A DNA stretch of 36,800 nucleotides from Candidatus Blackburnbacteria bacterium RIFCSPLOWO2_01_FULL_40_20 (GTDB lineage Bacteria > Patescibacteriota > Microgenomatia > UBA8517 > UBA10165), in the NCBI GenBank assembly GCA_001816475.1, contig MHCC01000002.1, forward strand, positions 377-37,176. Reading direction: 5' to 3'. Shown piece after piece: positions 7,379 through 30,110 of the stretch; the stretch's first letter is position 1; every line of letters begins with the position of its first letter. The position numbers and the translations under genes are program-made. The notes beneath the pieces are model-generated. The model searched no databases. It had not been told where the DNA came from and saw nothing but the letters and a program-made list of their open reading frames with translations.

Positions 7379-9067
7379 TTAGTATCTTTCTTTTACCAAA
7401 CGATCAAAGTGGCGGTCGCGCAAGAGCTTAAAGTAGTCGCGCTTCAGGCCATGATAACTAAAAAGCTGGGCCAAGTGATCCCCACCAACAACTTGTGGCA
7501 CCACAACGTAATCTGCACCCTTCTCGTACAGTGCTAATGCGTCCAGGGGGATAGCGCTTGTAAATATTAAAAGAGGCTTTCGTTCAAATTTGGCTACAAA
7601 CTCCAACAAAATTAAGTTGTCTTCAACGTTTCCAACAGTTGAGATAACAAGTTTTGACTCCTCCAAATTAAGGGAGGACAAAGTTTCGACGTCTGAGACA
7701 TCCCCATAAAAAGCCGTATGGCCCTCTGCAATTAGTCTCTCTACAACAGACGGGTTAAAGTCAACAACAACCACTTCCTCCTCCAACCTCTTGAACGTCG
7801 GTAGTAGTCTGCGCCCTGTTCGATCGCAACCCAAGATAACAATATGTTTTGCAAATGTCTTGTTTATTGCCAAGGCATTTTCTTTGATCTTTTTCCTTTC
7901 AAATAACCGAAGAAAGTACTCAAGTTTTTTGTAAAAAACAGCACTATACGAAATTAGGTACGTTGAAACAAGCATTGTAAAAACTGCAGTTAACGTTACC
8001 AATCCCCCAATATTTTGAGAAACATGTCCTAAGCTTATGCCGAGCGCCACAACAATTAAAGAAAATTCTGAAAGTTGAGAAGATGAGGCAGCAACAAGAA
8101 AAGAAGTCCTCTTTTTATAGCCCATTGCCCCCAGGAGCGAGGTAATAACAAAAGGTTTAATAGTAATAACAAAGATAGACAACAAGACAGCAAGTAATAC
8201 TACACTTAAATTAATCCCAACTACCATCTTTGTTCCCAGTAGGAAAAAGAAAATTGTAATAAAAAAGTCACGCAAGGGCTTTACTCTTGAAGCAATTTGC
8301 AAGTGGCCTGATGAGTTCGCAAGTGCAACACCTGCCAAGAGGCCTCCAATTTCTGTGGAAAAACCTACCGCAGGTAGGCTGGCAACTGAAGCAACAAGAA
8401 GCATCCAACCAATACTTGAAACAAACAAGAGCTCAGATGAAGAAGTTGCAATCCTGTCAAAAATCTTTGGAAGAACAAACTTTGCCAAAATATACACTGT
8501 AAAAAAGAGTAAAGCTCCTTTAAGTATTACCCAAAAGAACGTTAATTCTGAAACAGATTGATTTTTAAATCCAGACAAAAAAACCAGAATCAAGATGGCT
8601 ACTACATCTTGAATCAACAAAAGTCCGACAGTCAATTTTCCATACAAACTGTCCAAATCTCTCTTTTCTGACAATAGCTTGACAATAATGATCGTGCTTG
8701 AAAAAGTAAGTGCCGCGGCAATGTAAAGTGATTCAACTGAATTAAATCCAAAGGCAAGAGAAACCAAAAACCCTAAAATGGAAGTAGCTGCTATTTGCCC
8801 GACTCCCAAAACCAATACGGAATCACCTATTCGCCAAAACTCCTTTAAACTAATTTCCAGACCAACCAAAAAAAGAAGGAGCGTTACGCCCATTTGGGCC
8901 ATTGCTTCGAGAAGCGGTTGTTGATGTTCCAGGTCAAACCCCAAAAGCCCAACAAATATTCCGGCTGTTAAATAACCAATAAAAAGAGGTTGGCGAAATA
9001 ATCGTGCAACAAATCCAAATGCACCGGCTGCAACAATTCCCAAACTAATTGTCAAAAAAACATTCAC
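7379..9067 (-). CDS. Kef-type cation/proton antiporter with TrkA-N domain
   Basis: Na/H exchanger helices; KHIVILGCDRTGRRLL Rossmann motif. GTG start at 9067 inferred from TATACT-gttttt-GTG. Confidence 0.9.
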   Translation of the reverse strand: MNVFLTISLGIVAAGAFGFVARLFRQPLFIGYLTAGIFVGLLGFDLEHQQPLLEAMAQMGVTLLLFLVGLEISLKEFWRIGDSVLVLGVGQIAATSILGFLVSLAFGFNSVESLYIAAALTFSSTIIIVKLLSEKRDLDSLYGKLTVGLLLIQDVVAILILVFLSGFKNQSVSELTFFWVILKGALLFFTVYILAKFVLPKIFDRIATSSSELLFVSSIGWMLLVASVASLPAVGFSTEIGGLLAGVALANSSGHLQIASRVKPLRDFFITIFFFLLGTKMVVGINLSVVLLAVLLSIFVITIKPFVITSLLGAMGYKKRTSFLVAASSSQLSEFSLIVVALGISLGHVSQNIGGLVTLTAVFTMLVSTYLISYSAVFYKKLEYFLRLFERKKIKENALAINKTFAKHIVILGCDRTGRRLLPTFKRLEEEVVVVDFNPSVVERLIAEGHTAFYGDVSDVETLSSLNLEESKLVISTVGNVEDNLILLEFVAKFERKPLLIFTSAIPLDALALYEKGADYVVVPQVVGGDHLAQLFSYHGLKRDYFKLLRDRHFDRLVKERY

Positions 9068-9113
9068 AAAAACAGTATAGCAAAATTTAGAAAATCCGAT
9101 ATATAATTTAACA

Positions 9114-9377
9114 ATGAAAATCAAGAAAAAAGTTTGGCCGGAGTATTTTGAAAGACTTTTAGGCGGATCTAAAACTTACGAGCTAAGACTTGCTGACTTT
9201 GAATGTAATCCTGGAGATGTTTTGGTTCTTGAGGAATGGGATCCAAAAACTGGAGACTACACAGGGCGCACACTAGAAAAGACCGTAACCTATGTTGATA
9301 AATTCAAAATCGATAAACTTTTTTGGCCAAAAGAAGAAATTGAAAAACACGGACTCCAAGTAATTTCCCTCAAGTGA
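9114..9377 (+). CDS. DUF3850/ASCH-like small protein
   Basis: KVWPEYFERLLGGSKTYELRLADFECNPGDVLVLEEWDPKTGDYTGR. Confidence 0.75.
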   Translation: MKIKKKVWPEYFERLLGGSKTYELRLADFECNPGDVLVLEEWDPKTGDYTGRTLEKTVTYVDKFKIDKLFWPKEEIEKHGLQVISLK

Positions 9378-9390
9378 TATAATATAGGGC

Positions 9391-10389
9391 ATGGAAAGAG
9401 CAAGACAGCTTACAAGACGCGACCTTCTCAAATTTGCTGGTATAGGCACAGCAGAGCTACTACTTTTTTCGTGTACCTCTTCACAACAACCATCAAACGC
9501 AACTTCTCCTGAAAAACCAAGTCCAACAATATCTCCTGAATCGCATGCGCTCGGCGAACACGATAAATTCCACTATCGAAGCGAGGGTAAAAATTTACCC
9601 GTGACCCCATTTTTATATCTCCCTTTCTCTCGTGTGGATTTTGGGAAAGTTACAGTTGCTCAAGGTTGGGAAGCAAACGAAAACGAAAAGGCCAGAAGTA
9701 AGGTTGTTGCACATGAGGCTATTGATTTTGCTGCACCTTACGGGACAAAAGTGGTCGCGCCTTGCGACGGAATTGTGATCTCGTCTTGTGAAGAAGGTTG
9801 GAGAGTTGTTGGTGAAAACCAAGTGGTGTACAACGGCAAAAAAGTTGCATACGGCGGTGGAATTTTTGTTGAAATTGCCCGTGAAGACGGCCAAAGAGTT
9901 CAACTCTTACACCTTTCAAGCCTTGACTCCTCTATACCGTTTAGTAAACCAAACCCCAAAAAGGATGGCGGTTGGAGTCCAACTAAGCACAGCCTACCGT
10001 TTGATGAACTAAAAAAGATTGGCAAACCGGTTAAAGCTGGCGACATAATTGGAACAGTCGGACTAACAGGTTTAGAACTCGGAACACTTGGAAAATATCA
10101 AGGAGAAGATAGGCCATTGTCCGTTACAGAAAATGAATTAGAAACATGGGACGAGGTCGGAGCGCATGTTCATTTGGAGATTTTTGAAAGAAATGAAAAA
10201 GGTGGAAAATTTGGAAGACGCGATCCATTTGCAATTTACTCAACTTTTGATAAATATTCACTCGATGGGAAAAAACCTCTTGGGAAAGATCCGCTGTTTT
10301 ACTTAAACCAAGGTATCCCGCAAACCTCAGCTCGCCTCTCTTTGCGCGACTGGGCACAATTTGTCACGAATATTCTCCGTCAAGCATAA
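9391..10389 (+). CDS. Tat-signal lipoprotein with M23 (LytM-like) peptidase domain
   Basis: TRRDLLKFAG twin-arginine, LLLFSC possible lipobox, HEAIDFAAPYGTKVVAPCDGIV and HVHLEI metal motifs. Confidence 0.85.
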   Translation: MERARQLTRRDLLKFAGIGTAELLLFSCTSSQQPSNATSPEKPSPTISPESHALGEHDKFHYRSEGKNLPVTPFLYLPFSRVDFGKVTVAQGWEANENEKARSKVVAHEAIDFAAPYGTKVVAPCDGIVISSCEEGWRVVGENQVVYNGKKVAYGGGIFVEIAREDGQRVQLLHLSSLDSSIPFSKPNPKKDGGWSPTKHSLPFDELKKIGKPVKAGDIIGTVGLTGLELGTLGKYQGEDRPLSVTENELETWDEVGAHVHLEIFERNEKGGKFGRRDPFAIYSTFDKYSLDGKKPLGKDPLFYLNQGIPQTSARLSLRDWAQFVTNILRQA

Positions 10390-10410: not shown

Positions 10411-10429
10411 TGGGTCCAATAGTGACCCA
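10411..10429. other. hairpin after the M23 gene
   Basis: tgggtc caatagt gaccca. Confidence 0.4.
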
Positions 10430-10496
10430 GTTTGATACCTTTGTCAAAATTTAGCCTCAGTTCCACGTCAGACGTGGACAAAACAGTAACAAAAAG

Positions 10497-10586
10497 TCCC
10501 GATGTGCAAAGCTAGGACACCACGTCATATGTGGTAGGCCCGTAAAACGGGCCACTTCGGAAGTGTACTGGGTTGACACATCGGGA
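10497..10586 (-). ncRNA. multibranched structured element (candidate 3' UTR/ncRNA of rluD)
   Basis: 10-bp closing stem tcccgatgtg/cacatcggga enclosing three adjacent hairpins; minus strand continues CTTTTTGTT. Confidence 0.55.
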
Positions 10587-10589
10587 TAT

Positions 10590-11318
10590 CTAATCTCTAT
10601 CATCCACTTCATCAAGCATGCCAAGTACTTTTTGAAGATCTTCGGGAAGAGTTGATTCAAGTTGAATTCCCGTTCCGTCTTTTGGGCTTTTGAAGGAAAT
10701 TTTTGCAGCATGTAAAAAAAGCCTCGGGCACCATTTGCGATCGTTTCTCGCTGTCTTGCGGCCAGCGTAAAACTCATCCCCCACAATTGGATGTCCAATA
10801 TGTTTAAGGTGAATTCTTATTTGATGTGTTCTACCCGTTTTGGGGTAAAGCTCTAAAAGACTAAGCTCCTCGGTATTTTTACAGGTCACTTTGTTTTTTA
10901 CACTCAACACCACATATCTAGTTTCTGCTTCTCTACCTCCCGGCAAAACTCCAAATCTTTCCCTATTCCAAGGAAGACGACCAACAGACACAGAAATTGT
11001 TCCGCTTCCAGGCTCAACCCTACCATGGGCCAGTGCAACATAGGTCTTCTCCACCTCCCTTTCCTTAAATTGTCTTTGTAATTCTTCAAAAGCTTCTTTT
11101 GTTTTGGCAATAAGCAATATCCCACTCGTTTCCTTGTCTAACCTGTGCACAATTCCATTTCTACACTCTTGAAAATTGAAAATTGAAAATTGAAAATTAG
11201 CCGCCACCCATCCCTGAACGGTTTGATCTTTAACAGAGGCAGCATCATTTACAACCATTCCGGCTGGTTTATCAATAACGAGCACGGCGTTATCTTCAAA
11301 TAAGATTTTAGGCACCAT
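10590..11318 (-). CDS. rluD: RluA/RluD family 23S rRNA pseudouridine synthase
   Basis: NGIVHRLDKETSGILLIAKT catalytic motif; LYPKTGRTHQIRIHLKHIGHPIVGD. Confidence 0.93.
   Translation of the reverse strand: MVPKILFEDNAVLVIDKPAGMVVNDAASVKDQTVQGWVAANFQFSIFNFQECRNGIVHRLDKETSGILLIAKTKEAFEELQRQFKEREVEKTYVALAHGRVEPGSGTISVSVGRLPWNRERFGVLPGGREAETRYVVLSVKNKVTCKNTEELSLLELYPKTGRTHQIRIHLKHIGHPIVGDEFYAGRKTARNDRKWCPRLFLHAAKISFKSPKDGTGIQLESTLPEDLQKVLGMLDEVDDRD
11171..11198. repeat. (GAAAATT)4 heptanucleotide tandem repeat inside rluD
   Basis: gaaaatt gaaaatt gaaaatt gaaaatt. Confidence 0.95.
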
Positions 11319-13790: not shown

Positions 13791-13918
13791 GTCATTCCGG
13801 CGAAAGTCTTCGACACTGAGTCCTTCGACGGTGAGCTCAGGACTGTCGAACCGCTCAGACCGAAGGGCCGGAATCTATAAGAATTTTTTATAAATTCCAA
13901 AAACAAGTTCGGAATGAC
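13791..13918. repeat. GTCATTCCGG palindromic element, copy A
   Basis: gtcattccgg...ggaatgac with nested ttcgac/gtcgaa arms. Confidence 0.85.
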
Positions 13919-14460: not shown

Positions 14461-14590
14461 AATCATTCCGGTGAAAGTTTTCAACACTGAGTCCTTCGAC
14501 GGTGAGCTCAGGATTGTCGAACCGCTCAGACCGAAGGACCGGAATCTATAAGGTAATTTTGCATGGATTCCGTGTCGAGCACGGAATGAC
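14461..14590. repeat. GTCATTCCGG palindromic element, copy B
   Basis: near-identical to copy A through the central cactgagtccttcgacggtgagctcagga.tgtcgaaccgctcagaccgaagg segment. Confidence 0.85.
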
Positions 14591-15781: not shown

Positions 15782-15870
15782 ACTCATTTAACTCAGGTTG
15801 CAACCTTTGTTAAATGGGCGTGAACCTAAAATACTGTTATTAGAGATCAAGCTGGAGTATTTTGGGTATA
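15782..15870 (+). repeat. two-hairpin dispersed element, copy 1 (tRNA-Leu leader)
   Basis: tttaac..gttaaa hairpin then cctaaaatact..agtattttggg hairpin; homolog at 30021-30110. Confidence 0.7.
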
Positions 15871-15871
15871 A

Positions 15872-15955
15872 GCCGCGGTGGTGGAACTGGTAGACACGTA
15901 GCTCTCAAAAAGCTATGAGCGCAAGCTCGTGACGGTTCGAGTCCGTCCCGCGGCA
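15872..15955 (+). tRNA. tRNA-Leu(CAA)
   Basis: gccgcgg/ccgcggc acceptor, long variable arm, ggttcgagtcc T-arm, ctCAAaa anticodon loop; CCA not encoded. Confidence 0.93.
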
Positions 15956-19853: not shown

Positions 19854-20008
19854 GTCATTCTGGCGAAAGCCAGAATCTATATCAACGTCATTCCGGCGAA
19901 CGCCGGAATCTACATAATATAGATTCCGGGTCAAGCGCTTCGCCATGAGCCCTTCGACGGTGAGCTCAGGACTGTCGAACCACTCAGTGCCAAATGGCCC
20001 GGAATGAC
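19854..20008. repeat. GTCATTCCGG palindromic element, copy C (compound)
   Basis: gtcattctggcgaaagccagaat, gtcattccggcgaacgccggaat, then central module and ggaatgac. Confidence 0.85.
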
Positions 20009-20024
20009 AAAAAATAAGTACCTC

Positions 20025-30020: not shown

Positions 30021-30110
30021 ACTCGTTTAACTCGAGCTTGCAACTCTCGTTAAACAATTTTGAACCCAAAATACTGTTGTTGAGATGCAAACTGGACTAT
30101 TTTGGGTATA
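30021..30110. repeat. two-hairpin dispersed element, copy 2
   Basis: gtttaac..gttaaac then cccaaaata..tattttggg; aligns with 15782-15870. Confidence 0.7.

Follow-up and report, generated by a model that had tools for sequence, protein, structure and literature searches.

A probable REPIN-like miniature transposon beside an rluD-like gene in a Blackburnbacteria genome, built from end units that flank Y1 transposase genes in relatives

The ends of canonical IS200/IS605 elements and of their MITEs (PATEs) are asymmetric and carry subterminal hairpins that are recognized by the Y1 transposase. REPINs, or REP doublets, consist of two inverted hairpin units and are tied to one Y1/RAYT lineage (Bertels & Rainey, 2011; PMC3116915). 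REP-associated transposases act on such hairpins (PMC2817692, PMC6006769). In TIRtrons (TIRYT) the inverted repeats on either side of a RAYT-like gene are of another type than the GTAG REPs; some are self-complementary, and their dimers are dispersed in the genome. A GGGGWSAS motif is common to some of these TIRs, not to all (Di Nocera et al., 2013; PMC3733652). The text of Quentin et al. (2018; PMC6006769) on the TnpA-REP classes makes no mention of Microgenomates or Parcubacteria, and our literature search, which had most subscription journals outside its scope, returned no description of REPIN- or TIR-type elements in Patescibacteria.

The locus considered here lies in a window of 36,800 nucleotides from Candidatus Blackburnbacteria bacterium RIFCSPLOWO2_01_FULL_40_20, the genome of which (G000; 958 kb in 27 contigs) is 98% complete. 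A cloverleaf-like element of 90 nt occupies positions 10497-10586. It is closed by a perfect 10-bp stem with arms TCCCGATGTG (10497-10506) and CACATCGGGA (10577-10586), which encloses three adjacent hairpins: hairpin 1, ACCACGT-CAT-ATGTGGT (10519-10535), hairpin 2, GGCCCGT-AAA-ACGGGCC (10537-10553), and hairpin 3, CACTT-CGG-AAGTG (CACTTCGGAAGTG; 10553-10565). Every motif that the first-pass annotation had named for this stem and these hairpins was located at its sequence. Folding as RNA over 201 nt gave the cloverleaf as the minimum-energy structure, stable on both strands (z = -4.87 on the plus strand and -2.96 on the minus strand; none of 200 shuffles as stable). Folded as DNA, the 90-nt element gave z = -6.39 (plus) and -4.84 (minus), and again no shuffle out of 200 was as stable on either strand. 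Among stretches of 110 nt the cloverleaf ranks 13th of 2936 strand-windows, and is thus not the most stable structure in the window. The earlier annotation had taken 10411-10586 as one element; that span in fact takes in two distinct repeats, one of 53 nt (10429-10481; discussed below) and the cloverleaf itself. A proposed long-range pairing of ACCCAGT (10425) with ACTGGGT (10567) fared less well: both motifs are present, but about one 7-nt match is expected by chance in a region of this size (our own estimate), and we judge the pairing to be fortuitous. ACTGGGT is part of the spacer of the right-hand unit described next.

The two halves of the element are inverted copies of a unit of approximately 37 nt, made up of the box TCCCGATGTG, a 10-nt spacer and a hairpin with a 3-nt loop. 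When the element was used as a DNA query against 95 genomes, scattered short matches to its two ends turned up in 14 of them, and from these a common unit of roughly TCCCGATGTG-NNAANCTANN-CCACNNCCGANGTGG could be read. A 37-nt covariance model (R1) was built from 21 units of relatives, with the window units excluded. It detects both halves of the element: the right unit, on the minus strand at 10550-10586 with the hairpin CACTT-CCG-AAGTG, at 44.7 bits (E = 1.9e-10) and the left unit, on the plus strand at 10497-10536 with the hairpin CCACGT-CAT-ATGTGG, at 30.3 bits (E = 1.1e-6). The unit was found in 39 of the 95 genomes, the source genome included, with at most 29 matches per genome (the maximum, in G001), and 26 of the 30 unit loci checked are intergenic. 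The element was without a match in phage records, and in viral contigs as an exact pattern, so that these searches gave no sign of a phage origin.

The unit hairpin covaries. For 38 distinct units, 47 double-changed cells were counted against 22.2 +/- 4.4 in shuffled alignments, and the covariation score, 0.316, exceeded that of every slid version of the hairpin (0.181 at most); the first 21 units taken by themselves gave no excess over shuffles. This pattern could come from templated correction of palindromes as well as from selection. Pairing is possible between the box and the 5' arm of the hairpin, too. Co-variation of this pairing is above shuffles while its score is not above the slid controls, and the pairing is only suggestive.

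In relatives the unit is associated with Y1 transposase genes of the REP-associated (HUH) kind. At two loci (L025 and L029) a gene with a Y1_Tnp domain lies directly between two inverted units; both genes score for Y1_Tnp, with a REP_Tyr_transpos match below cut-off. Among the 150 unit copies and 150 Y1 domains listed, 25 units have a Y1_Tnp domain no more than 400 nt away, against an expectation of 0.64. These 25 copies represent 16 separate genes, the members of a pair not being independent, and the association is to a small extent circular because four of the 21 R1 model sequences were taken from the flanks of two Y1 genes. The arrangement is nearly uniform: units are mostly on the minus strand to the left of the gene and on the plus strand to its right, with hairpins pointing outward and boxes toward the gene. 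Y1_Tnp occurs in 35 of the 39 genomes with units versus 25 of the 56 without (Fisher p = 4.7e-6). The flanked proteins carry the HUH motif and mostly the Y---NP motif, and all 15 of those placed in a tree belong to a single clade of 17 members (support 100/99), which shows clustering rather than an unbiased frequency, since these rows had been selected on account of their flanking units. In Pfam, Y1_Tnp was the only domain matched by two flanked proteins (the C-terminal HTH of transposase subclass 2.1 was looked for in the Pfam matches alone). Beside one Y1 gene (in G071; L072 2096-2183) the unit is followed by several tandem copies resembling GCAGAGGTGTAATG. The source genome itself gave no match to PF01797 or NF047646.

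Units also occur as closed doublets. Besides that of the window, at least 20 are present among the unit copies listed, with lengths of 48-57 nt; nearly all of the 20 listed are of 55 or 57 nt, with one hairpin shared by both units. The window doublet is the sole 90-nt form among them: each unit has its own hairpin, hairpins 1 and 3, and hairpin 2 stands between them as an extra relative to the usual form. A second, decayed copy with the same three hairpins is found elsewhere in the source genome (L005, on contig C22). Both arms of the window element align with it, at a score of 64 where shuffles reach 28 at most. The counterpart of hairpin 1 in this copy is ACCACGTCATACGTGGT, and that of hairpin 2 is GGGACGT-ATG-ACGTCCC, in which two base pairs are fully compensatory with respect to the window. 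The source genome has one intact doublet and one decayed copy.

Compared with the described systems, the element resembles a REPIN in that two palindromic units, inverted and separated by a short spacer, form one larger hairpin, which is noncoding, intergenic and of a sequence type tied to one Y1 lineage. A further REPIN feature, the flanking of a RAYT-type Y1 transposase gene by the unit, is seen in relatives only, and the cognate transposase was not detected in the source genome. The unit alignments have no GTAG/GTGG tetranucleotide at the foot of the unit; the 10-nt box TCCCGATGTG is there instead. The element also differs from a REPIN in its hairpins, the usual doublet of relatives sharing one and the window copy having three. 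With neither a GTAG foot nor a detectable resident transposase, it does not qualify in our view as a canonical REPIN. The likeness to TIRtrons is that, in relatives, a RAYT-like gene has on both sides inverted repeats that bear no relation to GTAG REPs, whereas the flanked proteins here are Patescibacterial and approximately 220-235 residues in length; no GGGGWSAS was seen by eye in 39 aligned units. The HUH plus Y---NP signature is shared by the flanked proteins and the TnpA-REP classes (Quentin et al., 2018; PMC6006769), and the system also works like REPtrons (PMC2817692). It differs from IS200/IS605 elements and PATEs in that its ends are inverted rather than asymmetric and the flanked genes are RAYT-like rather than short IS200 TnpA genes. 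We class the element as REPIN-like, or as a dimer of TIR type, belonging to a RAYT-type transposase.

We consider the complete element at 10497-10586 to be a REPIN-like non-autonomous miniature transposon, that is, two inverted end units of the Y1/HUH (TnpA-REP or RAYT-TIRYT) type without a transposase gene, and put the probability of this reading at roughly 0.85. The model matches, the DNA fold and the decayed second copy all bear on it. In their anatomy, a hairpin with a short conserved box in inverted positions about an HUH/tyrosine enzyme, the units correspond to the substrate of a single-stranded DNA transposase, and the aside of the first-pass annotation that the tight loops would suit single-stranded DNA recombination is supported by the match of the ends to units flanking Y1 transposases in relatives. 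In the mechanism proposed here, the units would fold once the DNA became single-stranded, for example on a lagging-strand template. A Y1 transposase supplied in trans would recognize the hairpin plus the box and cut with its tyrosine, and the doublet would then be moved or copied to another, usually intergenic, site; recognition and cutting of the units presumably fall to the Patescibacterial Y1 transposase. Counted against this reading are the lack of a detectable Y1 transposase in the source genome, the single intact doublet there, the want of a GTAG/GTGG foot and of a clean empty site, the atypical three-hairpin form, and the limits already given for the Y1 association, the tree and the first 21 units. 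Since no Y1 transposase was detected in its genome, the element is probably a relic left stranded.

The element lies between two convergent genes. An M23 peptidase-domain protein (PF01551) is encoded on the plus strand at 9391-10389, and an rluD-like pseudouridine synthase of the RluA family (TIGR00005, 219 bits) on the minus strand at 10590-11318; the closest named matches of the latter are from Woesebacteria and Blackburnbacteria MAGs, and the genome is accordingly Woesebacteria-like. In a relative of the same family (G005) a 55-nt doublet directly follows the rluD orthologue and overlaps its stop codon. The rluD 3' flanks of six other relatives (G001, G002, G004, G006, G008 and G009) contain no doublet. 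A clean empty site was sought and none was found; the intergenic region in G001 carries a different hairpin. Shared ancestry and a preferred site both fit the doublets at rluD in the window and in G005. An antiporter-like gene follows rluD in G005 and in several other relatives. In the window, a small ORF (9114-9377) and the M23 gene separate rluD from the antiporter-like gene (7379-9124), which suggests a local insertion of 9114-10389 between the two. The simplest history would be an old insertion that was inherited vertically after loss of the transposase, and the window copy is probably now immobile beside rluD.

By exaptation the cloverleaf might now serve as a terminator for rluD or as a stabilizer of the 3' end of its mRNA, the closing stem followed by CTTTTTG stopping RNA polymerase. 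The element starts approximately 4 nt past the rluD stop codon, its rluD-sense strand folds as RNA (z = -2.96, as above), and the T-rich stretch CTTTTTGTTACTGTTTT that had been noted on the minus strand after the closing stem is indeed present (10480-10496), as a possible terminator tail. The G005 doublet is in the same place, and the decayed second copy likewise begins at the stop codon of a gene. However, the closing stem encloses a 70-nt loop, and a terminator scan, in which loops of only 3-8 nt are considered so that a larger enclosed loop is outside the pattern, called no terminator-like pattern. The T-tract is also absent from the two homologous copies that were read, L005 and G005, so a terminator role is possible for the window copy only, and on balance we regard it as doubtful. 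As a separate observation, the TAG stop codon of the host gene lies inside the end box (TCCYTAGGTG) in two copies, at the rluD end in L126 and at 1478-1490 in L005. It is conceivable, though improbable, that the 90-nt three-hairpin composite is a distinct type of miniature element, moved as a unit (there are two copies in the source genome, with the compensatory changes in hairpin 2) and kept after transposase loss by taking over 3'-end formation or termination of its host gene.

The first-pass annotation had described the element as an RNA of no recognized class. That no Rfam family matches was borne out: searches at the gathering threshold and at E <= 5 returned only chance-level matches far below gathering, and together with the stable multibranched fold this would suit a new class of structured regulatory RNA, be it a riboswitch, an sRNA or a tRNA-like structure. 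The ends are, however, dispersed repeats tied to one transposase clade; the element is downstream of genes, and the G005 copy at the same place has one hairpin only. We therefore regard a new RNA class as very improbable. A chance palindrome or a misassembly artefact, to which the single intact copy in the genome might point, can practically be dismissed given that none of the 200 shuffles folds as well, that both halves match an independently built model and that a decayed homologue exists elsewhere in the genome.

The 53-nt repeat next to the miniature element (family C; 10429-10481, plus strand) is separate from the cloverleaf. It consists of TTTGATAC..TCAAA, a conserved linker TTTAGCCTCAGT and the hairpin TCCACGT-CAG-ACGTGGA. 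The near-palindrome TCCACGTCAGACGTGGA that had been reported as a neighbour of the first hairpin is present at 10462-10478 and belongs to this repeat, which spans it, rather than to the cloverleaf. The source genome has eight matches to family C, six of them strong and two weak; 36 relatives have none. Besides the window, sites lie on contigs C25 (three copies), C15 and C12, with weak matches on C24 and C1. The hairpin covaries in the six strong copies, which are those from which the model was built. Family C is possibly another orphan mobile end. It was also considered as an integron attC site and rejected: core-site motifs were absent on reading, and the two tyrosine recombinases are on other contigs than the repeats. 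The window contains further repeats. One of approximately 90 nt with CCTTCGACGGTGAGCTCAGGA has three copies (13792-13881, 14463-14552 and 19921-20010), two of which are 94% alike, and one of 76 nt has two copies that are 74% alike (15795-15870 and 30035-30110), the first of which stops 2 nt short of the tRNA gene at 15872.

The present analysis supplies the sequence of a unit and a clade of transposases for a REPIN/TIR-type system in Microgenomates-like Patescibacteria. Ultra-small genomes would be expected to rid themselves of repeats. That such elements persist, among them a relic that lacks its enzyme, is relevant to the question of how these sequences survive genome reduction.
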